A DNA stretch of 64,000 nt from Halothiobacillus diazotrophicus. GTDB taxonomy: Bacteria; Pseudomonadota; Gammaproteobacteria; Halothiobacillales; Halothiobacillaceae. The position numbers were made by a program, and so were the translations under genes. A model generated the notes under the pieces. The model made no database searches and was not told the DNA's origin. It saw only the letters and a program-made list of their open reading frames with translations. The stretch is from positions 1,054,001-1,118,000 of the forward strand of contig NZ_CP016027.1 of the NCBI RefSeq assembly GCF_001663815.1, in the 5' to 3' direction. Below, one piece after another: positions 18,071-39,567 of the stretch (position 1 is its first letter; each line of letters starts with the position of its first letter).

Positions 18071-19744
18071 TCACGCCACGCTCTGAAACTCCTCGTTCAG
18101 GCCGAGTTTCGCCAGACGATAGCGGAACTGGCGCGCGGTCATCCCCAGCAGGCGCGCGGCCTGTGCCTGGTTGCCCGATGTGCGGATGAGGGCCGCACGG
18201 ATCTGTTCGCTATCGTGATCGCAAATTCGCATGTAGCTGCGCTTGGCGCTTTCTTCGCGGCCAGGGTCCTGCTCGGGATCCGCAAAGCCCGAATGACGGG
18301 CCTGGTAGAGATCAGATTCCCGAGCAGAAAGCACAGGCCGGGCATCATCACGCAGCGGGCTCTGCGACTGGCTGGCCTGATGCATGCTCCGCTCGATCTG
18401 CAGGATGCTGCCAATCTGCTCGGCACCGATCAGCTGGCCGCTCGCCTTCAGGACGGCACGCTCGATCACATTCTGCAACTGGCGGATATTGCCCGGCCAC
18501 GCGTAGGTGCGCAGCTCCTCGTAGACGCCCTGGGTGAAACTCACGTTGCGGTCGTAGAGTTGTGCGTAATGATCGAGGAAATGCTGGGCCAGCAAGCCGA
18601 TGTCTTCCGGTCGCTTGCGCAAGGCCGGCAGGTGGATCGGGATCACGTTGATCCGATAGTACAGATCAAGACGGAAACGTCCGTCGCGGATCGCTTCGGC
18701 CAGATTGACATGGGTGGCGGTGATCAGCCGGAAATTGACGTGCTGCGGCCGATCGCTGCCGATCGCCTGGATTTCCTTGTCCTGGAGCACCCGCAGAAGC
18801 TTGGCCTGGAGATCCAGCGGCATGTCGCCGATTTCGTCCAGAAACAGCGTGCCCTCGTGCGCCTGCTCGATCTTGCCCTTCTGCCGGCGATACGCGCCCG
18901 TGAAACTGCCCTTCTCGTGGCCGAACAGTTCGGACTCCAGGAGCGCTTCGGGAATCGAGGCGCAATTGATGCAGATGAAAGGCTTGTCCCGCCGCTGACT
19001 TTCCCGATGCGCCATGCGCGCGAACATTTCCTTGCCCGTGCCCGACTCCCCGAGCAGCATGATCGGCGCCTCGCTATCCTTGACCTGATCGATTTCCTTC
19101 ACGGCAGACAAAAGACTGGGACTTGAACCGATGATGCTGTTGGATTCGCTCATGCGGACGAAACGATCCCCGTCGTGATCGAGCTGCGCGGGCAGGTAGC
19201 TGACGGGCTGCGCCTTGTGACGCATGTTCATCAGCACGGGGCCGATCATGCTGGCGATGATGCGCAGCAAATCGACATCTTCCGAGTAGGATCGGCGCGG
19301 GTTCGCCCGACGCTGGATCGACAGCACGCCGCATACCCGCCCGTCGATGTTGACCGGAATGCAGATGAAACCGATCTTGGCCATGCTGCCCTCGATCGGT
19401 TCGGCGATACGCTGGATGAAAATAGGCTCGTCCAGCACGTCCGTGATCAGCGCCACCTGCCCGGTACGCCAGGCAAATCCGGTCAGCCCCTGGTCGAACG
19501 GTACGGTGTATTTTCCGGCAGCGATCCGATCGGTCGGCAACCCGTAGCTATAGGCGACTTCCAGCGCCCGCTGACCGTAATTGGGCAACATGATCCGCCC
19601 GTAGTGCAGATTCGCCCATCGCGACAGAAGGCTCAGCACGCCCCTGATCTTGTGGCCAGACGACGCCTCCGACTTGCTCATGAGGCGCGACACCTCGAGC
19701 AGCAGCGCCGAATTCACTTCCCGCGTCCCCGTCAAATGTTTCAT
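18071..19744 (-). CDS. NifA-like sigma-54-dependent activator (GAF-AAA+-Fis)
   Basis: The 557-residue regulator has an N-terminal GAF sensor domain (about 15-175). The sigma-54 AAA+ domain (about 203-435) carries Walker A GESGTGKE (232-239), the sigma-54 contact loop as GSFTGA (279-284) and Walker B with DEIGD (303-307). The C-terminal Fis-type helix-turn-helix is at about 515-550 (NQAQAARLLGMTARQFRYRLAKLGL). Such proteins bind enhancers and use ATP to open sigma-54 promoters. The architecture matches NifA/VnfA-type activators, but no nitrogenase genes are present. The sigma-54 sites at 37355, 37753 and 62755 make nearby amide and amine genes plausible targets (inference). Its gene follows the NCS1 permease at 19938 in the same direction, 193 bases apart. 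Confidence 0.9.
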   Translation of the reverse strand: MKHLTGTREVNSALLLEVSRLMSKSEASSGHKIRGVLSLLSRWANLHYGRIMLPNYGQRALEVAYSYGLPTDRIAAGKYTVPFDQGLTGFAWRTGQVALITDVLDEPIFIQRIAEPIEGSMAKIGFICIPVNIDGRVCGVLSIQRRANPRRSYSEDVDLLRIIASMIGPVLMNMRHKAQPVSYLPAQLDHDGDRFVRMSESNSIIGSSPSLLSAVKEIDQVKDSEAPIMLLGESGTGKEMFARMAHRESQRRDKPFICINCASIPEALLESELFGHEKGSFTGAYRRQKGKIEQAHEGTLFLDEIGDMPLDLQAKLLRVLQDKEIQAIGSDRPQHVNFRLITATHVNLAEAIRDGRFRLDLYYRINVIPIHLPALRKRPEDIGLLAQHFLDHYAQLYDRNVSFTQGVYEELRTYAWPGNIRQLQNVIERAVLKASGQLIGAEQIGSILQIERSMHQASQSQSPLRDDARPVLSARESDLYQARHSGFADPEQDPGREESAKRSYMRICDHDSEQIRAALIRTSGNQAQAARLLGMTARQFRYRLAKLGLNEEFQSVA

Positions 19745-19937: not shown

Positions 19938-21611
19938 TCAACCGCAACGCTCCGGCAACGCATTCAACGGCACGCCATTGGCCGCCACGGACTCCGTCTT
20001 GCAGACATCGTGGCAGGCCGAATCCAGCGAGCAGCACAAGGAGCAGATCGGCCCCTCATGGAACGGGCAGCAGGCCATGTCGGCCGGCTCGTACTCGAAA
20101 CCGCAGACCGAGCAGTTCACGGCATCGTGATGCGTCCCGGCGTGGTAGTGCGGATCGCGGCTGATGTAGTACTTGCCCTGCGTCGCCAGCGCGATGATCG
20201 GCGACAGCACGAAGGCGACCCCCAGGGCGATGAACGCAGAGAACGCCTGGGCATAGGCGCCGAAGAAGCCGAAGAACGCCATGATCGAGATCGCGGAGGC
20301 GATCACCATGGCCCCGAAACCCACCGGGTTGAAGTTGTAGAGGTGTGCCCGCTTGAACTCGAGATAGGACGGACTCAGCTTCAGCAGCGGCTTGTTAATC
20401 ACGAGATCCGCAACCACGGCACCGATCCAGGCCACGGCGACGTTGGAGTAGAAGCCCAGGATCTTGCCCAGCACCGAGAACATGTTCGCTTCCATCAGCG
20501 TGAGCGAGATGCCGACGTTGAAGAAGATCCAGACCACGCGACCGGGATGACTGTGCAGGGTCCGCGAGAAGAAGTTGGACCAGGACAGCGACCCGGAATA
20601 GGCGTTGGTGACGTTGATCTTGATCTGCGAGAGGATCACGAAAAAGGTCGCCACGGTCAGTGCGACGCCGGCATGGCCGAAGATGTAGTGGAAGCCGGAG
20701 ATGTACATCTGGATCGGCTCGTTGGCCTTGTCCAGCGTGGTGCCGTTGGCGACGGCCACCGAGGCGAACAGGGAGCCCATCAACTGCTTGCTGGCGCCGA
20801 GGATGACCCAGCCCGGTCCAGCCAGCATCACGGCCAGCCACCACTTCCAGCTATGCCCCTTGCGCTGGGCCGGCATGAACCGCAGGTAGTCGGCCTGTTC
20901 GCCGATCTGCGCGATCAGGGAGAGCGCCACGCCGGCGGCGGCCCCGAACAGCAGCGGGTTGAAACTGGCACCGCTGGTGGACTTGCCGGCAAAGGACGTC
21001 CAGTCGGCCAGTGCCTGATGATCACCGATCAGCACCGCGATCAGCGGCGCGAACAGCAGGGTCAGCCAGATCGGCTGGGTCCAGACCTGCAGCTTGGAGA
21101 GCAGCGTCATGCCGAACACCACCAGGGGAATGATGATCAGCGATGCCAGGGCGTAGCCCACCGGCAAGGGTATGCCGAAATAGATCTCGAACGCCTGCGC
21201 CATGATCGACCCTTCCAGGGCGAAGAATATGAACGTGAACGAGGCGTAGATGATCGAGGTGATCGTCGACCCCAGATAGCCGAAACCGGCGCCTCGAGTG
21301 AGCAGATCGACGTCGACGTTGTACTTCGCCGAGTAGTAGGCGATGGGGATGCCGGTCAGAAAGATGATCAGCGCCGCCGCGAGAATCCCCCAGAAGGCAT
21401 TGGCGAAACCGAACTGGACGGCCAGGGAGCCGCCGATGGCCTGGTCGGCCAGATAGGCGATCCCGCCCAGGGCTGTGGAGGCCACGGCGAATTCCGACCA
21501 GGTACGAAACGAGGATGGCGCATAACGAAGGGAGTAATCCTCAAGCACCGGATTACTGACGAGTTTGTTGAATTGACGCCCCTTGGGCAGTGCGGATGCG
21601 GGTGTACTCAT
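19938..21611 (-). CDS. NCS1-family permease with cysteine-rich C-terminal tail
   Basis: The 557-residue inner-membrane transporter has about 12 membrane segments and NCS1 (purine/cytosine/allantoin) features, including SLRYAPSSFRTWSEF at the start and LSQIKINVTNAYSGSLSWSNFF in mid-protein. After the last span a hydrophilic tail (about 499-557) holds CSVCGFEYE, ACCPFHEGPICSLCC and CHDVCK, which looks like a metal-binding module. The same module sits between permease and kinase in the fusion protein at 22161, and the two permease domains are clearly paralogous. The ligand is unknown; a nucleobase, hydantoin or similar N-compound is likely. ATG 21611 has GAGGT 9 nt upstream. Confidence 0.85.
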   Translation of the reverse strand: MSTPASALPKGRQFNKLVSNPVLEDYSLRYAPSSFRTWSEFAVASTALGGIAYLADQAIGGSLAVQFGFANAFWGILAAALIIFLTGIPIAYYSAKYNVDVDLLTRGAGFGYLGSTITSIIYASFTFIFFALEGSIMAQAFEIYFGIPLPVGYALASLIIIPLVVFGMTLLSKLQVWTQPIWLTLLFAPLIAVLIGDHQALADWTSFAGKSTSGASFNPLLFGAAAGVALSLIAQIGEQADYLRFMPAQRKGHSWKWWLAVMLAGPGWVILGASKQLMGSLFASVAVANGTTLDKANEPIQMYISGFHYIFGHAGVALTVATFFVILSQIKINVTNAYSGSLSWSNFFSRTLHSHPGRVVWIFFNVGISLTLMEANMFSVLGKILGFYSNVAVAWIGAVVADLVINKPLLKLSPSYLEFKRAHLYNFNPVGFGAMVIASAISIMAFFGFFGAYAQAFSAFIALGVAFVLSPIIALATQGKYYISRDPHYHAGTHHDAVNCSVCGFEYEPADMACCPFHEGPICSLCCSLDSACHDVCKTESVAANGVPLNALPERCG

Positions 21612-22160
21612 GGATCAATGACCTCGATGAAGAAGTTTGACGAACGTGCTACACCTGGAAACCGATGCGCCCGAAACAGAACAGATCCGATGGGCAAGAT
21701 CGCACCTGCGTCACGCGTCGAAATCCAGCCTTTCTCCGGCTCCCGAAAAGTCCCTGGTTCGCGTACGATCGGGGCGTCCGGCCCTGTCTACCCGCGTTGT
21801 CGTAATCCGCTGGACACGCTCCGATCCAACGTTGGAACACAGCTTACAAAGCCACCTTCCAGACAGACATACGTCATCTGACGAATAGGGATCGCATCAA
21901 GCGGGAATGGAAGAAAATCGGGTTATGGCTATGCGGCTTATGCACTTCACGCGACTACGTCAAATTACGTATAGTGGGATCGCGAGGTCCGTCGCATCAT
22001 CGAGTTCGACTGAGTGCAGCCAGCGTGTTTCCTGCAAGCAAGGAGGCGTATCAGCAACAGGAATGACCGGGCAACGTCGATCGGCACACACCTGGCCGGA
22101 ATGCCGCCGAATCTGCCTGAAGACATTCCTGCATGTACGTCGGCCCCTAGCGAGAACACC

Positions 22161-25100
22161 ATGAAGAAACTGCGCCGACTTCCCCGCCTCGACACGAACC
22201 CGCCGCGGCAGGTCAAGAAGATCCGCCGCGACTACAAATCCTGGGTCGCCAATGAAACCCTGGAAGACTACGCCCTGCGCTACGCGGCACAGGACTTCAG
22301 GAAGTGGTCCGTCTTTCGCGTGGCAAATACCGCTTTCGGTGCCGTCTCTTTCCTGGCCCTTGAGGCGATCGGCGCCGCGCTCACCGTGCAGTACGGCTTC
22401 ATCAACACGTTCTGGGCCTGCCTCGCCGCCTCGATTCTGGTGTTTCTGACCGGCCTGCCCATCGCGCACTATGGCGCCAAGTACAATCTCGACATGGATC
22501 TCCTCACCCGAGGCGCCGGTTTCGGTTATATCGGATCCACCATCACTTCCCTGATCTACGCCTCGTTCACCTTCATCTTCTTCGCCATCGAGGCGGCAAT
22601 CATGGCGCAGGCGCTGAACCTGTATCTGGGGGTGCCGATGACGCCGTCCTATCTGTTCAGCGCCTTGATCGTCCTGCCGCTCGTCGGCTATGGCATCACG
22701 GTAATCAGCCGCCTGCAGATGTGGACCCAGCCGCTCTGGCTGCTGTTTCTGGTCCTCCCCTATCTCTGCATTCTCTGGAAGGATCCCGAGGCGTTTCACC
22801 GGCTCATGTCCTTCGGTGGCAATCTCGGCGTGTCCGAGTTCAACCTGCTCGCCTTCGGCGCGTCGACCAGCGTGGTGCTGGCCCTGATCGCCCAGATCGG
22901 CGAACAGGCCGACTATCTGCGTTTCATGCCCCAGAAAACCGAAGCGAACAAGCGGGCCTGGCATCTGGGCATCCTGATTTCCGGTCCAGGCTGGATCACG
23001 GTGGGCATGGTCAAGCTGCTCGCCGGCGGGCTCCTGGCCTACCTGGCCCTGAGTTCTGGGATCAGCTCCGCCCAGGCCGTCCAGCCGGCAGTGCTCTACG
23101 AACTGGGCTTCGGTTATGTCTTCGACTCCCCGGTGGCCGTGATACTGGCGGCCACGTTATTCGTGGTGATCTCGCAGATCAAGATCAACGTCACCAACGC
23201 CTATGCCGGCTCGCTCGCCTGGTCCAACTTCTTTGCCCGCCTGACGCACAGCCATCCCGGTCGCGTGATCTGGCTGATCTTCAACGTCCTGATTGCCCTG
23301 ATGCTGATGGAGGTCGGCGTGTTCGAGGCGCTGGGCGACGTGCTCGGCATCTACTCGAACATCGCGATCGGCTGGGTCGGTGCGATCGTGGCGGATCTCA
23401 TCATCAACAAACCGCTCGGACTGAGCCCCCCGGGCATCGAATTCAAGCGCGCCCATCTGTACGACATCAACCCGGTGGGCATCGGTGCCCTGTTGATCGC
23501 CTCGACGCTGTCCATCATCGCCTACACCGGCGTGTTCGGCCCTCTGGCGCAGGCCTTTTCGGCTTTCATCGCGCTCGGTACCGCCTTTGTCGTCGCCCCG
23601 CTGATCGCCTGGCTGACCAAGGGTCGCTACTACATCGCCCGAGAACCGGAACCCACGGGCAAGAAGCAGACGCAGCGCTGCGTGGTCTGCGAAAAGGATT
23701 ATGAAACCAACGACATGGCGCTCTGCCCGGCCTACCGCGGCGCCATCTGCTCCCTGTGCTGCACGCTGGACGCCCGCTGCCACGACATGTGCCGCCCCGG
23801 CGCAGGCCTGCAGGAACAGTTCATCGCCCTGCTGAACTACCTGCTACCCCGCAATCTGGCAGCCCGCATCAATACCCGATTGGGGTACTACCTGCTCCTG
23901 ATGCTGGTGGTCGCCGGCGTCCTGAGCACCGTGCTCTCCCTGATCTACTGGCAGCAGACCCATCATCTCTCGGCAACCGACGCCCTCTTGTTCGAGGGGC
24001 TGCTGGTCAAGCTGTTCGTGGCCCTCATGGTGCTGGCCGCCGTCGGGGGATGGTGGCTCGTGCTCACGGTGGAGAGTCGCTATGTGGCACAGGACGAGTC
24101 GAATCGCCAGACGCACCTGCTGATGAACGAAATCGAGGCCCACCGCAAGACCGACGCCCAGCTGCAGAAGGCGATCGAGGAAGCCGAACGGGCCAACCAG
24201 GCCAAGAGCCGCTATCTTGCCGGCATCAGCCACGAACTGCGCACCCCGCTCAACAGCATTCTCGGCTACGCGCAGATCGTCGAACACGATCCGGCCGTGC
24301 CGCGCCAGCGACGGGACGAAATGAAGGTCATCCGCCGCAGTGGCGAACACCTGGTGTCATTGATCAACGGTCTGCTGGACATCGCCAAGATCGAGGCAGG
24401 CAAGCTCACCATCGAACCGGAGGAAGTGGACTTTCCGCAGTTCGTGACCCAGTTGGCCGACATGTTCCGCCTGCAGGCCAGCGAAAAGCACATACGCTTC
24501 AATTTCGAAATCATGGACGAATTGCCGACGGTGGTCCGCGTCGACAAGAAGCGCCTGGGACAGGTGCTCATCAATATCCTCGGCAACGCCATCAAGTTCA
24601 CGAACGAAGGCCATGTGACCTTCCGGATTTCCTACCGGAGCGAAACCGTGCGCTTCGAAATCGAGGACACGGGCATCGGAATCTCCGAAGCGGATCGAAA
24701 GCGGATTTTTCTGCCCTTCGAACGCGGCAGCAATGCGACGGGACAGGCCGCCAGCGCCGGCCTGGGCCTGACCATCGCGAGCATGCTGGCCACCCTGATG
24801 GGCGGGGAACTCACGGTGCATGCCCGTCCCGGCGGCGGCAGCCGATTCCAGTTGCGCCTGCTGCTCACGGCCGTGCGCAACCCGCGGCCCCTGCCGGCGG
24901 AAGCCCCTTCCGACATTCTCGGCTACCGGGAGCCCAAGCGCCGCATCCTGATCGTGGACGATCAGCAGATCGACCGCGAATTCCTGCACAGCGTGCTCGC
25001 GGCCATCGGCTTCGAGGTCCTGCAGGCCGATTCCGGGATCACGGCCTTGCGCATGGCCGCCGAACATCAGCCGGACATGATCATCCTCGACATCAACATG

Positions 25101-25688
25101 ACTGGCATCGATGGCTGGGAAACCGCCCGACTGCTGCGCACCAACGGCATTTCCGAGGCGCCGATCCTGATCGTCTCCGCCGATGTGCTCGATCGCGGCA
25201 AGCCGAACACGGCGGGGATCGCCGCCGAGGACTTCATCGACAAACCGGTGGATATCGGGGTGCTCCTGCAGCGCATTCGCGACAAGCTGCAACTTGAATG
25301 GATCACGAACGGCCAGGAATCGGCCGATCCCGCCTCGCCCGCGACCGTGACGCAAACCGTGAATCAGAACATAGCGCCTGACGAGTCCCTCGCTCCGATC
25401 CAGACGATACGCCCCCCGTCGACCGACGAGTCGGACGCAATCCCGACGGCCGACGAAGAGTCTCTGGAGGACCTGCCGAGCGTACAGGTGATCCGCGCCC
25501 TGCATGAACTGGGCGCACTGGGGTACATTCGCGGCATTCTTGACAAACTCGACGAACTGGAACATGCCCGCCCCGATCTCGCGACGCTGGTACGCGATCT
25601 GCGCGTACCCGTCCAGCAGTTCCAGCTTGGCGAGTACCTGAGACAACTCAAGGAATTGGAAGCCAGACATGAACGCACCCAAACCTGA
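22161..25688 (+). CDS. NCS1 permease-cysteine-rich-hybrid histidine kinase fusion (transporter-like sensor)
   Basis: This 1175-residue protein joins a full NCS1 permease domain (about 20-490) to a Cys-rich module (about 505-550, CVVC...CSLCC...CHDMC). Two more membrane spans follow (about 573-595 and 614-637), then a HisKA domain with SHELRTPLNSI (His691). The HATPase has GNAIKFT, DTGIGIS and GLGLTIA. The receiver domain (about 929-1045) has phospho-Asp977 and Lys1028, and the final tail is helical. It resembles CbrA-type kinases, in which a solute/sodium symporter domain is the input, but here the input is NCS1. It probably senses, and may transport, a nucleobase-like or amide-like nitrogen compound. 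ATG 22161 is chosen because alignment with the neighbouring permease begins soon after; a longer frame reaches 22014. Its last 20 bases overlap the response-regulator gene. Confidence 0.88.
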   Translation: MKKLRRLPRLDTNPPRQVKKIRRDYKSWVANETLEDYALRYAAQDFRKWSVFRVANTAFGAVSFLALEAIGAALTVQYGFINTFWACLAASILVFLTGLPIAHYGAKYNLDMDLLTRGAGFGYIGSTITSLIYASFTFIFFAIEAAIMAQALNLYLGVPMTPSYLFSALIVLPLVGYGITVISRLQMWTQPLWLLFLVLPYLCILWKDPEAFHRLMSFGGNLGVSEFNLLAFGASTSVVLALIAQIGEQADYLRFMPQKTEANKRAWHLGILISGPGWITVGMVKLLAGGLLAYLALSSGISSAQAVQPAVLYELGFGYVFDSPVAVILAATLFVVISQIKINVTNAYAGSLAWSNFFARLTHSHPGRVIWLIFNVLIALMLMEVGVFEALGDVLGIYSNIAIGWVGAIVADLIINKPLGLSPPGIEFKRAHLYDINPVGIGALLIASTLSIIAYTGVFGPLAQAFSAFIALGTAFVVAPLIAWLTKGRYYIAREPEPTGKKQTQRCVVCEKDYETNDMALCPAYRGAICSLCCTLDARCHDMCRPGAGLQEQFIALLNYLLPRNLAARINTRLGYYLLLMLVVAGVLSTVLSLIYWQQTHHLSATDALLFEGLLVKLFVALMVLAAVGGWWLVLTVESRYVAQDESNRQTHLLMNEIEAHRKTDAQLQKAIEEAERANQAKSRYLAGISHELRTPLNSILGYAQIVEHDPAVPRQRRDEMKVIRRSGEHLVSLINGLLDIAKIEAGKLTIEPEEVDFPQFVTQLADMFRLQASEKHIRFNFEIMDELPTVVRVDKKRLGQVLINILGNAIKFTNEGHVTFRISYRSETVRFEIEDTGIGISEADRKRIFLPFERGSNATGQAASAGLGLTIASMLATLMGGELTVHARPGGGSRFQLRLLLTAVRNPRPLPAEAPSDILGYREPKRRILIVDDQQIDREFLHSVLAAIGFEVLQADSGITALRMAAEHQPDMIILDINMTGIDGWETARLLRTNGISEAPILIVSADVLDRGKPNTAGIAAEDFIDKPVDIGVLLQRIRDKLQLEWITNGQESADPASPATVTQTVNQNIAPDESLAPIQTIRPPSTDESDAIPTADEESLEDLPSVQVIRALHELGALGYIRGILDKLDELEHARPDLATLVRDLRVPVQQFQLGEYLRQLKELEARHERTQT

Positions 25689-26547
25689 GCGCGGCATCGT
25701 CCTACTGGTTGACGATGCCCCGGACAACCTGCGCATGCTGCATGAAGCCCTGCAGAGCCAGGGGTACATGGTGCTGGTCGCCACGGATGGCCAAAGTGCG
25801 CTCGACAGCGTGCAACGGCTCCCGCCGGACGTGATCGTGCTGGACGCGCGCATGCCCGGCATGGATGGTTTCGAAACCTGCCGTCGGCTGAAGGAAGGCC
25901 TGACCACCCGGGACATTCCGGTCATCTTCATGACGGGCCTGAGCGATACGGAGTACATCATCCAGGGCTTTCAGGCGGGCGGCGTCGATTACGTCACCAA
26001 GCCCATCGTCATCGACGAACTCTTGGCCCGGATCACCACCCACATGCACCGGGCACGTCTGGTCACGCATACGCGCTCGGCCATCGACTCGGCCGGTCGA
26101 GCCATTCTGGCCTTCGATCCCGACTTCGCCATCACCTGGGCCACGCCGCTCGCCCAACGCCTGGTTCAACCGCTGGTCGACATCCCCGACCATCTGCCCT
26201 CGGCGATTCGTCAATGGCTCAAGGAGCGCGATGGGGAAAGCGCCTACCCGCTCTGGCACAACGGCGAGCGTCTGCTCTTCACCCTGCTCGAACCTCAGCT
26301 GCTCTGCATCCAGCGTCACGCCGCGCAGGCAGAACCGGACATGCTCGCCCGGATGTTCCAGCTCACCGCGCGCGAGGCCGAGGCGCTGTACTGGGTGACG
26401 CTCGGCAAGACCAATCGGGAAATCGGCGAAATCATGCAGATCAGTCCGCGCACGGTGAACAAGCATCTGGAACATGTCTTCGAGAAACTGGGCGTGGAAA
26501 CGCGCACGGCGGCCGCCGCCCTGGTGCTCAGCCGGACGAGTGCCTGA
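25669..26547 (+). CDS. LuxR-family response regulator, partner of the NCS1-kinase fusion
   Basis: The 292-residue protein has a receiver domain (about 8-125) with DD, phospho-Asp59 in VLDARMPG and Lys111 in YVTKP. A middle segment of about 90 residues resembles a reduced PAS-like domain. A LuxR/NarL helix-turn-helix follows (about 225-285, LTAREAEALYWVTLGKTNREIGEIM and SPRTVNKHLEHVFEKLGV). The start overlaps the end of the kinase gene by 20 bases, so the pair is almost certainly a cognate two-component system. The stop codon lies inside a CCTGAR hexanucleotide repeat. Its targets cannot be read directly. Confidence 0.9.
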   Translation: MNAPKPERGIVLLVDDAPDNLRMLHEALQSQGYMVLVATDGQSALDSVQRLPPDVIVLDARMPGMDGFETCRRLKEGLTTRDIPVIFMTGLSDTEYIIQGFQAGGVDYVTKPIVIDELLARITTHMHRARLVTHTRSAIDSAGRAILAFDPDFAITWATPLAQRLVQPLVDIPDHLPSAIRQWLKERDGESAYPLWHNGERLLFTLLEPQLLCIQRHAAQAEPDMLARMFQLTAREAEALYWVTLGKTNREIGEIMQISPRTVNKHLEHVFEKLGVETRTAAAALVLSRTSA

Positions 26548-29683: not shown

Positions 29684-31054
29684 TCAGCGTATGGCGGCTT
29701 TGCGTGCATAGACGGTCATCAACACCCAATAGGTGATGCCCCCGACCAGCGCGGAAGAAATGGCGGTGGACATGCCCGGCATCCCCTTCTCGACGATGAA
29801 GGCGACCACCGAGCCGGCTGCCCAGGCGATGAAGGCCAGCGGACGCCAGTCGGCATCGATGTCGGACCCCGGTCGCTTGAGATACTGGTCGACGATGATG
29901 ATGGCGCCGATGGGCGGCACGATGATCCCCAGCAGGCTCAACCACTGGATGAAAAAGGCCCAGACGTTGGTCGCGGCGACGATGATGCCGATCACACCAA
30001 GGGCGATGGCCATCAGACGCATTTCGCTCCGCAGAATGCGTGACCAGCCGGTGGAGGCGTTATACAGGCAGTGCGAACAGACGGAACCCAGGTTCGCCAG
30101 CAGGAACACGAAGGCGATGACCACGAGGAAGCCGGAACCGGAAGACATCATGTAACCGAACATGTTGTCCTTGCCGAAGGGGTTGGCATCCGGCACGGCC
30201 AATGCCGCCGTCATGACGCCACCGAGGATCAGGGCAATCATGTTCGCGAACGGGAAGGCGCTGAAGGTCGCTACCAGCGAGCTTTTCTTGTCCTTCGCCC
30301 AGCGGTTGAAGTCCGGCGTCACGGTGCCCGCATCGATGAACAGCGCGATGACCATGGTCAGTCCGACGCCGAACGGCAGCAGCTTGTCCGGATGGTTGCC
30401 CGGGTAGGCCATGACGGCATCGAAGGTGGTCTTGCTGGAGGCGTCGATGGCTACCCACAATGCAAGCACGACGAACAGCGGCGCGGAAATGATGCCGATC
30501 CAGTGCAGACCGCGGACACCGATGAAGGTGATCCCGATGAACAGCGCTCCGGCAATGATCGTCATCACGACGTAGTTGATGTCGTAGGAACTGCTCAACA
30601 AGGCACCGGCAATACCCGTCTGTACGGCGTACCAGCCGAGCAGCAACGTCGACAGCAGACCGGACGCGAGCGCATAGCCCTTGCGGCCGAACACGATGCT
30701 GGCAAGCAGCGCGAAGTTGAAGCCCTTCTTGGTGCCGAGCAGCCCCAGCAGCCCCACATAACCGAACATGATCAGGTTTCCGATCAATATCGCCCACATG
30801 GCATCCTTGAAGCCCATGCCGAGAACCAGCAGCGAGCCCGTCATGGCACCGGTGATGATCATCGGAAAGCCCATCCACACCATGCTCACGGAGAACATGC
30901 TGCGGCGCGCCGACATGGGCACAGCGGTATGCTCGTACTCCTTGCCAAGGGCGTGTTCTACTTCTTCCTCGATGTGATGAATTTCGTCGACAAGGTGCTC
31001 ACCATAGTGGTGGCCCTCCCCTTTTACAGCAGCGGCTTTGTTGTCTTGGGTCAT
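29684..31054 (-). CDS. NCS1-family permease (CodB-like)
   Basis: The 456-residue transporter has a hydrophilic, His/Glu-rich N-terminus (1-45) and about 12 membrane spans. NCS1 features include GFPMIITGAMTGSLLVLG, WYAVQTGIAGALL and DFNRWAKDKKSS, the last close to CodB-type cytosine permeases. It differs clearly from the Cys-tailed NCS1 proteins at 19938 and 22161, so the window has three NCS1 domains of two types. It lies between amiE (100 bases upstream) and the MetX-like hydrolase, suggesting uptake of an amide-related or nucleobase-like substrate. ATG 31054 is preferred over the extended frame. Confidence 0.85.
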   Translation of the reverse strand: MTQDNKAAAVKGEGHHYGEHLVDEIHHIEEEVEHALGKEYEHTAVPMSARRSMFSVSMVWMGFPMIITGAMTGSLLVLGMGFKDAMWAILIGNLIMFGYVGLLGLLGTKKGFNFALLASIVFGRKGYALASGLLSTLLLGWYAVQTGIAGALLSSSYDINYVVMTIIAGALFIGITFIGVRGLHWIGIISAPLFVVLALWVAIDASSKTTFDAVMAYPGNHPDKLLPFGVGLTMVIALFIDAGTVTPDFNRWAKDKKSSLVATFSAFPFANMIALILGGVMTAALAVPDANPFGKDNMFGYMMSSGSGFLVVIAFVFLLANLGSVCSHCLYNASTGWSRILRSEMRLMAIALGVIGIIVAATNVWAFFIQWLSLLGIIVPPIGAIIIVDQYLKRPGSDIDADWRPLAFIAWAAGSVVAFIVEKGMPGMSTAISSALVGGITYWVLMTVYARKAAIR

Positions 31055-31154
31055 GATTCCGTTTATCCGTAAATTGTTTAATTGATTTGGGCGTGTTGCG
31101 TCTGGCAGCACGCCACTGGCTCATGTCAGAGAAAACGGTGTCGAGGATCCGGGG

Positions 31155-32363: not shown

Positions 32364-33056
32364 TTACACCGACAGGTATTTGCTGACCTGTTCGGTGTCG
32401 ACGTTCTCGCGCAGGTCGTCGTGGATGAAATTGCCCTTGTCGATCACGATGATTCGGTCAGCCACCGCCATCGTGAAGCTGAGCACCTGCTCGGACACGA
32501 TGATGGTGATCTCGCGCATCTTGCGGATCTCGTTGAGGACATTGGCGATGTCCTTGATGATCGATGGCTGGATACCCTCGGTCGGCTCGTCCAGGAGCAG
32601 CACCTTGGGGTTGCTGACCAACGCACGGGCAATCGCCAACTGCTGCTGCTGACCGCCGGAGAGGTTGCCGCCCTTGCGGTGACGCATCTCCAACAGCACT
32701 GGGAACAGCGAGAAGATCTCGTCGGGAATCTTCTTGCTCTTGGCGGTTTCCAGCCCGGTCTCGATGTTTTCCATCACGGTCATGTGGGAAAAGATCATCC
32801 GGCCCTGCGGCACATAGGCGATACCGTTTGCCACCCGTTGGTGCGAGGCCATCTTGGTCACGTCGACCCCGTCGACCTTGATCGAGGAGCCGCCACCAGC
32901 CGGGAGCGCACCGATCAACGACTTGAACAGCGTGGTCTTGCCCATGCCGTTGCGACCCATGACCGCAATGGTCTCGTTGGTGTTCGCATTCAGGTCGATG
33001 CCGTGGATCACTTCACTCTCGCCGTAGCTCACGGAGAGTCCTGATACTTCAAGCAT
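32364..33056 (-). CDS. Amide/urea-type ABC importer ATPase (UrtE-like)
   Basis: The 230-residue ATPase has Walker A GRNGMGKTT, signature LSGGQQQQLAIARAL and Walker B VLLLDEPTEGIQ, the LivF/UrtE pattern. It is the second of two ATPases in a five-gene importer of the branched-chain amino acid/urea class. Because no urease gene is present while amidase and formamidase genes flank the set, short amides are the likely cargo, as for Methylophilus FmdDEF. It lies 15 bases after the UrtD-like gene. Confidence 0.92.
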   Translation of the reverse strand: MLEVSGLSVSYGESEVIHGIDLNANTNETIAVMGRNGMGKTTLFKSLIGALPAGGGSSIKVDGVDVTKMASHQRVANGIAYVPQGRMIFSHMTVMENIETGLETAKSKKIPDEIFSLFPVLLEMRHRKGGNLSGGQQQQLAIARALVSNPKVLLLDEPTEGIQPSIIKDIANVLNEIRKMREITIIVSEQVLSFTMAVADRIIVIDKGNFIHDDLRENVDTEQVSKYLSV

Positions 33057-33071: not shown

Positions 33072-33818
33072 TTAATGGCCGAGATAGACTTCGATCACGC
33101 GCGGGTCGTTCTGCACGTGGTCCATGGTGCCCTGCGACAGGATCTTGCCCTGGTGCAGAACGGTGACCTTGTGCGCGATGCGCTTGACGAATTCCATGTC
33201 GTGTTCGATCACGATCACCGAACGGTCCTGACAGATCCGGTTGAGCAGGTCGGCGGTCTGTTCGCGCTCGCGCACGCTCATGCCCGCTACCGGCTCGTCC
33301 AGCATCAGCAGTTCCGGGTCCTGGATCAGCAGCATGCCGATCTCAAGCCACTGCTTCTGCCCGTGGCTGAGCAGGCCCGCTTCCATGTCCAGCAGATCGG
33401 ACAGGAAGATCATGTCCGCGACCTCCTTGATGCGGGCCTCGACGTCCGGGGTACGCTTGAACATCAAGGCACCGAAGACGCTACGACCGCGCGGGAAGGA
33501 GATCTCCAGGTTTTCGAACACCGAGAGGTTTTCGTAGATCGACGGGTTCTGGAACTTCCGTCCGACGCCGGCACGAACGATCTGGTGCTCGGCCATCTTG
33601 GTCAGTTCCTGGTTCTTGAACTTGATCGACCCACTGGTGGCCTTGGTCTTGCCGCAGATCAGGTCGAGCACCGTGGTCTTGCCGGCCCCGTTGGGACCGA
33701 TCACGACCTGAAGCTCGTTCTTGTCGATGTAGAGGGTCAGTCCGTCGACGGCCTTGAAACCGTCGAAGGAAACCGTGAGGTCCTCGATCGCGAGGACGAA
33801 ATCGGTATTGCTGCTCAT
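33072..33818 (-). CDS. Amide/urea-type ABC importer ATPase (UrtD-like)
   Basis: The 248-residue ATPase has Walker A GPNGAGKTTVLD, signature LSHGQKQWLEIGM and Walker B LLMLDEPVAGM, the pattern of UrtD. Unlike most ABC signatures (LSGGQ), LSHGQ with KQWLEIG is characteristic of UrtD. Its ATG overlaps the stop of the permease gene as ATGA, implying coupled translation. Confidence 0.93.
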   Translation of the reverse strand: MSSNTDFVLAIEDLTVSFDGFKAVDGLTLYIDKNELQVVIGPNGAGKTTVLDLICGKTKATSGSIKFKNQELTKMAEHQIVRAGVGRKFQNPSIYENLSVFENLEISFPRGRSVFGALMFKRTPDVEARIKEVADMIFLSDLLDMEAGLLSHGQKQWLEIGMLLIQDPELLMLDEPVAGMSVREREQTADLLNRICQDRSVIVIEHDMEFVKRIAHKVTVLHQGKILSQGTMDHVQNDPRVIEVYLGH

Positions 33819-34987
33819 TTCGCGGCCTCCTCTTTCTCAGCCACGGCCGGTGCCGTCACTTTGGCCACAGCAGCCTTTTTCTTGCCACCGATGCCCACCT
33901 TGTCGAGGAACCCATCGACGTGCGGCTTGACGTAGGTCTGATACAGACCGGCCAGCCCGTTCGGGAAGAACATCACGACGGCGATGAACAGACCGCCCAT
34001 CAGGAACAGCCACAACTGCGGGAAGGACTCGGAGAATGCGGTCTTGCCGTAGTTGACCAGCAGCGCGCCGTAGACCGCACCGATCAGCGACATCCGACCA
34101 CCGACAGCCGCCAGGATCACCATCTCGATCGAGGGCACGATGCCAACGAAGGACGGGGACATGAAGCCGACCTGCAGGGTGAACATCGCCCCACCGATCG
34201 CCGAGATCACCGCCGCGAGGGCAAAGATGAAGATCTTGTAGTTGGCAACGTCATAGCCGGAGAAACGCACACGGTCTTCCTTGTCGCGCATCGCCAGCAG
34301 CAGGCGCCCGAACTTGGACGTCATGACGAACTTGCTCAGCAGGATCACACCGATCAGCAGCAGGCCGTTGACGTAGTACAGGATGTACTTGGCCGAATTG
34401 GTGTTGATGTCCCAGCCATGCATCGTCTTCAGGTCGGTGATGCCGTTGATGCCACCGGTGAAGCCCTGCTGACCGACGATGAGGATGGTCAGAATCGCCG
34501 CGACCGCCTGGGTGATGATCGCGAAGTACACGCCACCTACCCGACGCTTGAACATCGCTGCCCCGATGATGTAGGCGAAGATCGCCGGCACCACGAAGAT
34601 CGCGATGATCGCGAACGTGAGACTGTGGAAGGGCACCCAAAATAATGGCAGCTGCGTGACCTGGTTCCAGTCCATGAAGTCCGGAATGCCGGGCGTGGTC
34701 TGCTTGGCGGTACTGATCGGATCGGATGCCTCAAGCTTGAGAAACATCGCCATGCAGTAGCCACCGAGGCCGAAGAACACCCCTTGTCCCAGACTCAGGA
34801 TGCCGCCATGGCCCCAGAGCAGGACCAGGCTCACCGCCGCGAAGGCGTAGGTCAGGTACTTGCCGACCAGGTTCAGTCGGAAGATATCCAGGAACAGCGG
34901 CAGAATCGCAAAGATCAGCAGCGAAAGGACCAACAATCCCAGCGCACCCTGTCTGCCGCCAAGCCATCTTTCGTAAAAGGTACTCAT
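33815..34987 (-). CDS. Amide/urea-type ABC importer permease (UrtC/FmdF-like)
   Basis: The 390-residue inner-membrane permease of the LivM/UrtC class has about ten spans and the segment LWGHGGILSLGQGVFFGLGGYCMAMFL typical of the group. A charged, Ala/Lys-rich tail ends the protein. It pairs with the UrtB-like permease to form the channel. It lies 18 bases after that gene. Confidence 0.92.
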   Translation of the reverse strand: MSTFYERWLGGRQGALGLLVLSLLIFAILPLFLDIFRLNLVGKYLTYAFAAVSLVLLWGHGGILSLGQGVFFGLGGYCMAMFLKLEASDPISTAKQTTPGIPDFMDWNQVTQLPLFWVPFHSLTFAIIAIFVVPAIFAYIIGAAMFKRRVGGVYFAIITQAVAAILTILIVGQQGFTGGINGITDLKTMHGWDINTNSAKYILYYVNGLLLIGVILLSKFVMTSKFGRLLLAMRDKEDRVRFSGYDVANYKIFIFALAAVISAIGGAMFTLQVGFMSPSFVGIVPSIEMVILAAVGGRMSLIGAVYGALLVNYGKTAFSESFPQLWLFLMGGLFIAVVMFFPNGLAGLYQTYVKPHVDGFLDKVGIGGKKKAAVAKVTAPAVAEKEEAAK

Positions 34988-35005: not shown

Positions 35006-35932
35006 TTACTTCCGGACCTTGCTGGCGAACAGACCTTCCGGGCGCAGCATGAGGATCACGATGATGGTCAGCAGAGTGACAACCTTGCCCATCGCGTTGG
35101 TCATGAAGAACGTCAGGATCGACTGTGCCTGCGAGATGCTGAACGCAGAGGCAACGGTACCCAGCAGGCTGGCAGCGCCACCGAACACGACCACCAGGAA
35201 GGTGTCGACGATGTAGAGCGAGCCACTGGTCGGGCCAGTTGAGGCAATGGTGGTGAACGCCGCACCGGCAACACCGGCCACACCGCAACCCACGGCAAAG
35301 GTCATGCGGTCGACCTTCTGGGTATTGATACCCACGGCACCAGCCATCATGCGGTTCTGAGTGGTCGCACGGACCTTGAGCCCCCAACGGGACTTGTACA
35401 GCGAGATGATCACGGCCGCAGTCACCAGGATGGTGATGGCCATCACGAACAGCCCGTTGATCGGGATGTCGATGCTCGGCGTCGGCGACCAGGAACCCAT
35501 CAGCCAATCCGGCAGGGTCGGGCTGACTTCGCGACCACCAAAGGTTGAACGGAAGATCTGCTGCATGATGAGGCTCAGGCCCCAGGTTGCCAGCAGCGTG
35601 TCCAGAGGACGTTTGTACAGGTGTCGAATCAATATGAATTCGACGAAATACCCGACGATGAACGCAATCGCGAAGGCCGCGAAGATGGCCACCACAAAGT
35701 AGTAGGGCATGAAGGCAGGGAAGTACTGCTCCGTGACCTTCGAGATAACGTAAATCGTGTAGGCGCCGATGGTCATGAACTCGCCATGAGCCATGTTGAT
35801 TACGCCCATCTGGCCGAAGATGATCGCCAACCCCAGGGCCATCAGCAGCAGAACGCTGAAGAGGCTGAGGCCTGCGAAGCCTTGCATGACCAGGATGGAC
35901 CCCCAATCCGACCATGAATAACCAAGCAACAT
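35006..35932 (-). CDS. Amide/urea-type ABC importer permease (UrtB/FmdE-like)
   Basis: The 308-residue permease of the LivH/UrtB class contains MGVINMAHGEFMTIGAY and LDTLLATWGLSLIMQQ, standard for UrtB. ATG 35932 has AGGAG 9 nt upstream. It is 93 bases downstream of the binding-protein gene. Confidence 0.93.
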   Translation of the reverse strand: MLLGYSWSDWGSILVMQGFAGLSLFSVLLLMALGLAIIFGQMGVINMAHGEFMTIGAYTIYVISKVTEQYFPAFMPYYFVVAIFAAFAIAFIVGYFVEFILIRHLYKRPLDTLLATWGLSLIMQQIFRSTFGGREVSPTLPDWLMGSWSPTPSIDIPINGLFVMAITILVTAAVIISLYKSRWGLKVRATTQNRMMAGAVGINTQKVDRMTFAVGCGVAGVAGAAFTTIASTGPTSGSLYIVDTFLVVVFGGAASLLGTVASAFSISQAQSILTFFMTNAMGKVVTLLTIIVILMLRPEGLFASKVRK

Positions 35933-36025: not shown

Positions 36026-37270
36026 TTAGTAACCCTTGGGGAACGGATTCGGCATGATGTACGGCGAGGTGTAGACGATGTCGGCCTGACCGTCGGCACG
36101 CCACTCACCGATCCGCAGACGGGTCTTCAGGTGGTGGTTGGGCTCGAGGTAGACCATGCCTTCCGGTGCGTCGAAGGTGATCTTGCCGCTCTCTTCAGCC
36201 TTCACGACCTTGTCGGTATCGAAGCTGCCCGCCATCTCGACCGCCTTCTTCCAGAGCCACGGACCCTCGTAGGCCGCCTGGGTCACGTCGCCGATCGGCG
36301 CATTGGCGCCCCACATCTTCTTGAAGTCGGCGACGAAGGTTTTGTTCTCCGGCGTATCCAGGGACTGGAAGTACTTCATTGCGGAGTAGAAACCGAGCAG
36401 GTTCTCGCCGCCGATGCCCTGGGCTTCATCCTCGGTAACGGACAGGGTCAGAAGGGTCTGCTTCTTGCCGGTAATACCCGCAGCCTTGAGCTGCTTGAAC
36501 CAGGCAACGTTGGAACCGCCAACCACAGCGGCATAGATCACATCCGGCTTCTTCAGGCGGATCTTGTTGATGGTGGAACCGAACTGGGTGCTGCCCAGCG
36601 CAGCGTATTCCTCACCGACGATCTTCCCGTGCAGGACGGTTTCGATGTACTTGCGGGCGAGCTTCATGACCGTACGCGGCCAGATGTAGTCGGAACCGAT
36701 CAGGTAGAAGGTCTTGGCATGCTTGTTCTTGGCCACCCAGTCCAGACCGGCGAACACCTGCTGGGTCGCTTCCTGGCCGGTGTAGATCACGTTCTTGGAT
36801 TGTTCCAGGCCCTCATAGAAGGTCGGGTAGTACAGCAGACCGTTATCCCGCTCGAGAACCGGCAATACCGCCTTGCGGGAAGCGGAGGTCCAGCAACCGA
36901 AGATCGCGGCGACATGGTTGTCCTCCAGCAGCTTCTTGGCCTTCTCGGCAAAGGTCGGCCAGTCGCTCGCACCATCTTCCTGAATGATCTTGATCTTGCG
37001 ACCCAGCACACCGCCCTGGGCATTGATCTGCTCGATCGCCAGCTTCTCGGCCTGCTGGGCACCCGTTTCACTGATGGCCATGGTGCCGGTCAGCGAATGC
37101 AGGATGCCGACCGTGACCGTGTCGTCCGTGACGGCCATACCGGTGGTATTCACTTCGGCGGTGGGCGGCCCGGCATAGACCGAGGACACCAGCAATACCG
37201 AAGACAGTGTCAGGCCATAAGCGGCCACGCGCACACTGCGCCAAATTCCCGATTGATTTTTCTTAATCAT
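36026..37270 (-). CDS. Amide/urea-type ABC importer substrate-binding protein (FmdD/UrtA-like)
   Basis: The 414-residue periplasmic protein has an N-terminal signal peptide (about 1-33, hydrophobic core GLTLSSVLLVSSVYA) without a lipobox. A type I periplasmic-binding fold follows, starting VTVGILHSLTGTMAISE. FGCWTSASRKAVLPVLE and YYPTFYEGLEQSKNVIYTG are close to UrtA and to the FmdD amide-binding protein. ATG 37270 has AGGAG 9 nt before it, and the longer frame is unsupported. It is the first gene of the importer operon, read from the sigma-54 promoter at 37355-37370. Confidence 0.93.
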   Translation of the reverse strand: MIKKNQSGIWRSVRVAAYGLTLSSVLLVSSVYAGPPTAEVNTTGMAVTDDTVTVGILHSLTGTMAISETGAQQAEKLAIEQINAQGGVLGRKIKIIQEDGASDWPTFAEKAKKLLEDNHVAAIFGCWTSASRKAVLPVLERDNGLLYYPTFYEGLEQSKNVIYTGQEATQQVFAGLDWVAKNKHAKTFYLIGSDYIWPRTVMKLARKYIETVLHGKIVGEEYAALGSTQFGSTINKIRLKKPDVIYAAVVGGSNVAWFKQLKAAGITGKKQTLLTLSVTEDEAQGIGGENLLGFYSAMKYFQSLDTPENKTFVADFKKMWGANAPIGDVTQAAYEGPWLWKKAVEMAGSFDTDKVVKAEESGKITFDAPEGMVYLEPNHHLKTRLRIGEWRADGQADIVYTSPYIMPNPFPKGY

Positions 37271-37354
37271 ATTGATAGCTCCTGATTTAACACCGGCTAG
37301 GCGTTTTTCTACGAATAAGACACAAAGGGAAAAAATCCCTTCGCCAAACAACAA

Positions 37355-37370
37355 AGCAGAAACCGTGCCA
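37355..37370 (-). promoter_or_regulatory. Sigma-54 promoter of the amide importer operon
   Basis: Read on the minus strand the site is TGGCACGGTTTCTGCT. It matches the sigma-54 consensus TGGCACGRNNNTTGCW at every fixed position but one (C for T at the first base of TTGC), with the required GG-10-GC spacing. The start point should be about 37344. Confidence 0.85.
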
Positions 37371-37588
37371 CTGAAAATACGCACACCAACGGAGAGAAAA
37401 TCAAAGACGAATACCGATAGGGATTAATACCCAAAGAAAAGTCATCGAATCGGGAACAACGGGATATCTCAATCACTTACGGACGCCCAACACCCGATCA
37501 GTCAGGCCTGAATCGCGGGCATGCAGGCATGATCCGTGGCAACCCTCAACATAAATAATTCTTTATATACAACATGTTACCCGTTTTA

Positions 37589-37752: not shown

Positions 37753-37768
37753 TGGCACGGTACCTGCT
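37753..37768 (+). promoter_or_regulatory. Sigma-54 promoter of fmdA
   Basis: TGGCACGGTACCTGCT matches the sigma-54 consensus except for one C in the -12 element and is almost the same as the opposite-facing importer promoter. The predicted start is about 37779, giving a 130-nt leader before fmdA. Confidence 0.87.
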
Positions 37769-39146: not shown

Positions 39147-39222
39147 CGGTCGGCAGCGTCTGGCGGCGCCCTTCTCAGCGCCGGCAGACCAGTGACCCAT
39201 CGAATACCGAACGGAGGCATCC

Positions 39223-39567
39223 ATGCCCATCTACGAATACCAGTGCAAAAACTGCGAACGCCAGTTCGAGCAAATGCGCGCCATGGCGGAATACCGCGAT
39301 CCCTGCGAATGCCCGTGGTGCGGCCATGAAGCCGGTCGAATCCTGCTGACGGCCCCGAGACTGAACGACATGAAGGCCAGCGTCCGCAAGGCGCACCAGA
39401 TCAACGAACGCAGCGCACATGAACCCCGATCAACGGCCCGGCATCAATGCGGCCCGGGCTGCAACCACAACCACAAAGCCAGCGCCGCCAAGGCCGCGAC
39501 AACAGAGCAAGGAGGTCCACACCTGAAGATGCAACCCGGCAAGCGCCCCTGGATGATCGGGCATTGA
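39223..39567 (+). CDS. fmdB: FmdB-family zinc-ribbon protein
   Basis: The 114-residue protein starts MPIYEYQCKNCERQFEQ and has two CxxC pairs (CKNC and CPWC), the FmdB zinc-ribbon. The C-terminal half is longer than usual and has a second His/Cys cluster (HQCGPGCNHNH) that could bind metal. The founding member lies in the Methylophilus fmd cluster, where it was proposed to be regulatory; the family's role is otherwise poorly defined. It lies 76 bases after fmdA and 93 before the porin gene. ATG has GGAGG just upstream. Confidence 0.9.
   Translation: MPIYEYQCKNCERQFEQMRAMAEYRDPCECPWCGHEAGRILLTAPRLNDMKASVRKAHQINERSAHEPRSTARHQCGPGCNHNHKASAAKAATTEQGGPHLKMQPGKRPWMIGH

Follow-up and report, generated by a model that had tools for sequence, protein, structure and literature searches.

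A permease of NCS1 fold fused to a hybrid histidine kinase, with a proposed role in sensing urea and short-chain amides

In a 64,000-nucleotide stretch of the genome of Halothiobacillus diazotrophicus (the window), a membrane permease and a hybrid histidine kinase are encoded as one protein. This raises the question which compound such a protein recognizes, whether it still transports it and which genes it controls. A preliminary description, made from the sequence, had proposed a working transporter-sensor with an NCS1-type input domain, a dedicated LuxR-type regulator and a nucleobase, a hydantoin or an amide-like compound as ligand.

Architecture of the fusion and fold of its permease half

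The gene of the fused sensor (22161-25688, + strand) is a single open frame with an ATG start and encodes 1175 aa without stop or frame break. It comprises a permease domain (22161-23630; residues ~1-490, 12 helices), a Cys-rich module (23658-23804; residues ~500-548), two further membrane spans (23868-24080; residues ~570-640) and the hybrid histidine kinase with HisKA (24201-24401; residues 681-747, His691), HATPase_c (24543-24866; residues 795-902) and receiver (Response_reg, 24945-25280; residues 929-1040, Asp977), all on the + strand. The kinase and receiver domains were assigned by Pfam, for HisKA and the receiver also by alignment, the Cys-rich module by the AlphaFold model and sequence alignment and the two extra spans by the model. 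In the AlphaFold model (pLDDT 86.7, pTM 0.87), the permease has 12 helices and is followed by a small beta/Cys module and by two long additional helices (572-600, 605-664), the second of which continues toward the kinase. The eight Cys of the module (507, 510, 522, 530, 533, 534, 540 and 544) are all invariant in the fusions, and the module is probably metal binding. Standalone members of the permease family also keep part of these Cys, so the module belongs to the permease family.

The motifs of kinase and receiver (H691, N805/N809, D836/G838/G840, G867/G869, D933, D977, S1006 and K1028) are intact, as noted earlier, and each of these residues is conserved in 136-139 of 139 aligned fusions. 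A frameshift or assembly artefact between the two parts is ruled out, because a full-length fusion with 79% identity occurs in a second genome of the same genus and hundreds of further full-length fusions were found. Apparent split-gene homologues were rejected: L074, L078 and L110 are permeases cut short by the ends of their contigs, and L179, composed of Cys module and kinase, lies on a truncated contig. The paralogous permease next to the sensor (19938-21611) is no separated half of the fusion but a predicted companion transporter.

The next gene (25669-26547, + strand) encodes a LuxR/NarL-type response regulator of 292 aa with Response_reg (11-122) and GerE (231-284) domains by Pfam, and overlaps the sensor gene by exactly 20 bases. 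The same regulator adjoins 52 of 52 fusions in 55 loci from an even Pseudomonadota draw, which bears out its description as dedicated. In Pseudomonas a shorter form is present beside the fusion.

The permease half is a divergent branch of NCS1, in agreement with the preliminary description, and four lines of evidence lead to this assignment. Among PDB structures, CodB matched best (E 2.4e-10; VIA Z 33.9) and Mhp1 reached Z 30.8; CodB and Mhp1 occupied Foldseek ranks 1-5 as well as the first four VIA rows (Z 27-34), and other LeuT-fold families followed at VIA Z 25.9 or less. One relative (L177, 43-45% identical) exceeds the PF02133 cut-off over positions 49-451. The family profile could be aligned with an NCS1 permease of the window (P0004) over 395 columns (E 4.5e-6, hhalign), and the same permease was weakly matched in a genome search with this profile. 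Pfam gave nothing useful for the permease half of the sensor even at E=10, PF02133 included, and this model matches 1 of 54 family members. In NCBIfam no match specific to the permease half was obtained, and a PDB sequence profile search gave zero matches. The sensor has no Pfam match to SSF (SLC5), and its structure is nearer to NCS1 than to SSS structures. The invariant Lys341-Ile342 align at or beside Thr278/Thr279 of the Na2 site in TM8 of CodB; this mapping is tentative, since two alignments disagree by one residue.

Gene neighbourhood and distribution

In the window, genes for amide use are found 5-14 kb downstream of the sensor. An aliphatic amidase (AmiE, PRK13286; 31155-32195) and a urea/amide ABC transporter are located on the - strand. 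The latter consists of a UrtE-type ATPase (32364-33056), a UrtD-type ATPase (33072-33818), which was used as reference for the neighbour scans, UrtC-type (33815-34987) and UrtB-type (35006-35932) permeases and a UrtA-type binding protein (36026-37384). AmiE, UrtE, UrtB and UrtA were assigned by profile matches, UrtD and UrtC by their position in the urt operon and by matches to annotated urtD and urtC elsewhere. The UrtA match starts at residue 90, and translation probably begins further inside the frame than 37384. On the + strand follow the formamidase FmdA (PF03069; 37911-39146), an FmdB-like zinc-ribbon protein (39196-39564, limits of the open frame) and a Gcw_chp outer-membrane-type protein (PF09694; 39661-40386), which from its position may be an FmdC-like amide porin. 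In the host genome, where positive controls worked, a urease gene was not found. The amide cluster also contains a MetX-like alpha/beta hydrolase (PRK07581; 28649-29674, - strand), and homologues of 71-72% lie between urtE and fmdA in L254, L264 and L267. Directly downstream of amiE, in operon direction, lies a classical CodB-like NCS1 permease (29684-31111, - strand), the sole PF02133 match of the genome.

The company of the fusion is conserved. Genes for urt transporter, amidase or urease are near 54 of the 55 loci of the phylum draw, compared with 0 of 19 loci of other hybrid kinases taken as controls, related genomes being non-independent samples in these counts. Among 70 loci ranked by similarity and 12 kb or longer, a set skewed to close relatives, 53 carry genes for urease or amidase or close homologues of urt (62 with remote urt homologues counted too); because of this bias, the 55 loci (52 fusions) were drawn from the phylum survey. 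Usually, sensor and regulator are divergent from urtABCDE-fmdA-fmdB-amiE or lie beside ureABC, and annotated plasmids of Burkholderia, Klebsiella, Chelatococcus, Methylobacterium, Roseomonas, Novosphingobium and Mitsuaria agree with this. In several Rhodocyclales loci and in Tistrella, amide or urease genes were not found within ~9-10 kb. A Cys-less NCS1-like permease with 28% identity (L261:8784-10439, + strand; genome G567) lies beside weak AmiF and UrtA homologues and may connect classical NCS1 with the sensor permease family.

The fusion is widespread. In an even draw, the family is held by 57 of 398 Pseudomonadota genomes, most of them with a fusion, and the frames mostly have 1100-1300 codons; a class-level draw gave 20 of 369 genomes. 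Scanning of the genome collection revealed at least 591 confirmed relatives, and near-full-length fusions are present on ~500 plasmid records, the majority from Klebsiella. Its presence is patchy, since only 2 of 10 genomes of the host genus hold the family. Zero relatives were found in the viral contigs searched. PGAP mostly labels the fusion "ATP-binding protein".

The input module (permease, Cys module and two membrane spans) is joined to other outputs as well. Genome G163 carries it in front of PAS-GGDEF-EAL (L174:7352-11026) and of PAS-PAS-HisKA-HATPase-receiver (L176:9023-12838), and plain kinases also occur. GGDEF-EAL outputs act in c-di-GMP turnover. Such variation is as expected for a modular receptor. 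Two frames of 894-899 codons with a family permease lie near fmdA (L258 and L259; genomes G469 and G571) and gave no match to the reference hybrid kinase at the threshold applied.

Standalone permeases, predicted operators and proposed signal path

Divergent from the sensor, a standalone permease of 557 aa (19938-21611, - strand) is encoded, which is 55% identical to the permease half. Standalone relatives also adjoin the sensor in genome G288 and on records of Acinetobacter and Methylovirgula. Others are found by urease genes (after ureG in Klebsiella, before ureE in A. ursingii) or by amide genes (next to fmdA in Moraxella and Tsukamurella, next to an amidase in Arthrobacter). For two standalones, from Streptomyces and Arthrobacter NicSoilB11, a urease, formamidase or amidase neighbour was not found. 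The location in or beside urease, formamidase and amidase genes points to urea and amides as substrates of the standalone family, and the permease at 19938-21611 is predicted to be both a urea/amide transporter and the regulatory target of the sensor. The Klebsiella pneumoniae member (L300:6941-8548, on a probably chromosome-derived record) directly follows ureG and is annotated as cytosine permease. It is probably a urea permease, and we predict that the permease ending the Klebsiella urease operon carries urea. In a tree of 106 permease domains, 100 fusions (a few contig-truncated ones included) and 6 standalones were separated with 99% SH-aLRT support under midpoint rooting, and urease-linked and amide-linked labels clustered. 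Directly downstream of the standalone permease in the window, a GAF and sigma-54 activator of NifA/NorR-like type is encoded (18071-19744, - strand); a relative of 78% lies near the fusion of G009, a genome without standalone permease.

A palindrome, TACGTCA-N2-TGACGTA, is conserved upstream of the fusions, most strongly at amide-linked loci, where 13 of 18 have 0-1 mismatch; ~510 shuffles never gave fewer than 3 mismatches. In the even draw it was found at 15 of 37 amide loci, compared with 0 for 60 scrambled palindromes. The general form TACG-N8-CGTA is present upstream at 36 of 48 amide-linked loci versus 1 of 825 control windows, and at 5 of 53 urease-linked loci, most of which are without an exact copy. 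In the 2.9-Mb host genome, the sole one-mismatch sites of the long form lie between sensor and standalone permease. These predicted operators are TACGTCATCTGACGAA (21870-21885, + strand) and TACGTCAAATTACGTA (21956-21971, + strand).

The palindrome was not found upstream of urtA, fmdA or amiE in the host genome, and direct control of the catabolic genes is therefore unsupported here. Since good sites occur nowhere but in the gap between the sensor and 19938-21611, the regulator most likely switches on this transporter. The divergent gap between urtA and fmdA holds two TGGCACGGTNNCTGCT-like elements resembling sigma-54 promoters (37355-37370, - strand; 37753-37768, + strand), which makes it likely in any case that the catabolic genes are under nitrogen control. 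These positions suggest control of the standalone permease by the sensor in this genome, and nitrogen control may act on the ABC transporter and amidase genes.

Taken together, the gene pair is likely to form a two-component system that responds to urea and short-chain amides and switches on a cognate transporter, here 19938-21611. The NCS1-family permease domain would bind the amide, and its conformational change would reach the hybrid histidine kinase by way of the eight-Cys module and the two additional membrane helices. Phosphate would then move from His691 via Asp977 to the LuxR-type regulator, which in the presence of amide would bind the TACG-N8-CGTA palindromes and turn on 19938-21611 and its own operon. 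The imported amide would feed the nearby AmiE and FmdA. Of the ligands proposed earlier, amide-like compounds fit the gene context of urea and short-chain amides, but nucleobases and hydantoins do not; as a urease gene was not found in the host, formamide or acetamide is likelier than urea.

Receptor function, alternative readings and known systems

Whether the fusion is a transporter as well as a sensor was addressed by comparing 139 fusions with 15 standalone permeases. All fusions depart from the standalones at a common set of positions in TM1, TM3 and TM8, and the earlier reading as a working transporter-sensor is not supported as it stood. Separation is complete at position 145 (Ala in fusions, Gly in standalones) and position 349 (Ala and Ser, respectively). 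At position 64, every fusion has Phe and 14 of 15 standalones have Tyr. No fusion has Asp67 in TM1, which 14 of 15 standalones keep (only L297, with an in-frame stop, does not); all fusions instead have Glu at residue 68, where the standalones have Phe or Gln. As the fusions form one clade, these residues may be inherited marks; they are kept across fusion sequences down to ~46% identity. Judged from these alignments, the differences suggest a specialization for signalling, away from transport. Our tentative reading is that the fusions are a class of dedicated urea/amide receptors from an unnamed NCS1 branch, which may have kept binding and lost coupled transport, marked by the change from Asp67 to Glu68, Ala349, Ala145 and the eight-Cys module, and also plugged, in one genome, into PAS-GGDEF-EAL. 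Since sensor and transporter versions with few fixed differences occur side by side, the step from transporter to receptor can be tested by mutation.

A true transceptor appears rather unlikely. Its permease half would still carry amide or urea across the membrane while the kinase monitors the transport cycle, a mechanism proposed for CbrA. Such a transceptor would fit the residues of TM6 and TM8 common to the standalones (Q245, E248, Q249, D251, R254, K341, N343 and N346), which are invariant in the fusions, and studies of CbrA have addressed its transport as well as its kinase activity (PMC7096432, PMC13022988). Against it stand the uniform differences at 349, 145 and Asp67/Glu68 described above, the standalone paralogue, which could carry uptake where present, and the case of Ks-Amt5, which lost transport on turning sensor (PMC5764959).

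It is improbable that the sensor reports general nitrogen status, or pH or ammonia as product, rather than the amide itself: the sigma-54-like elements between urtA and fmdA would agree with this, but a binding domain related to permeases of urease and amidase operons would be odd for a status sensor, and the sensor tracks the substrate genes in the loci read. Likewise improbable is a nucleobase, hydantoin or allantoin ligand with the amide genes downstream of purine breakdown, for although known NCS1 proteins carry ring compounds, the cluster includes the CodB-like permease and PGAP names some standalone relatives allantoin or cytosine permease, the travelling genes are those for formamidase, aliphatic amidase, urt and urease, allantoinase and cytosine deaminase were not found in the annotated neighbourhoods read, and the NCS1 protein MetT carries metformin, a non-ring ligand (PMC13390362).

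The urea/amide reading places the sensor beside known amide systems. The fmd/ami operons hold the same catabolic genes, namely formamidase, FmdB, an amide/urea ABC importer, aliphatic amidase and porin. In the AmiC/AmiR system of Pseudomonas, amides are sensed by a binding protein and an antiterminator. The fmd genes of Methylophilus (fmdCABDEF) are induced by formamide and urea (PMC10781810), and a membrane-bound sensor kinase of operons of the Methylophilus type is not mentioned in this review. In two genome papers, a kinase or a kinase/LuxR pair is listed next to urt genes, with the permease unrecognized (PMC2907700, PMC13296017). In the open literature, with subscription journals mostly uncovered, neither an NCS1-kinase fusion nor a urea/amide sensor family was found described. 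The system studied here is thus a proposed sensor of urea and small amides for many Pseudomonas, Burkholderia, rhizobia, Comamonadaceae, methylotrophs and Klebsiella plasmids; substrate induction is described in such bacteria, and a membrane sensor was not found in the accessible literature.

As the preliminary description noted for CbrA, fusions of transporters and kinases are an established kind, published for SLC5 (CbrA, CrbS, RpuS) and Amt (Ks-Amt5) (PMC13022988, PMC9100948, PMC5764959). The SLC5/STAC kinases share with the sensor a LeuT-fold transporter, a (hybrid) histidine kinase and an own regulator, and RpuS/R controls a separate neighbouring symporter gene, mctP (PMC9100948), a parallel to the control proposed here. 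They differ in the transporter half, which is SLC5 instead of NCS1, apparently in the STAC domain, which was not recognized in the sensor, where AlphaFold shows the Cys/beta module and two long helices, and in their ligands histidine, acetate and pyruvate, compared with the urea and amides proposed here. Ks-Amt5 likewise is a nutrient transporter turned receptor on a histidine kinase, and kept binding (PMC5764959). Its fold (Amt, trimeric) is unrelated, however, and its ligand is different. We know of no urea/amide context for Ks-Amt5. CodB, Mhp1 and MetT share fold and remote sequence kinship with the permease half, but are without a fused kinase. With the sensor, NCS1 joins the transporter families turned into kinase inputs.
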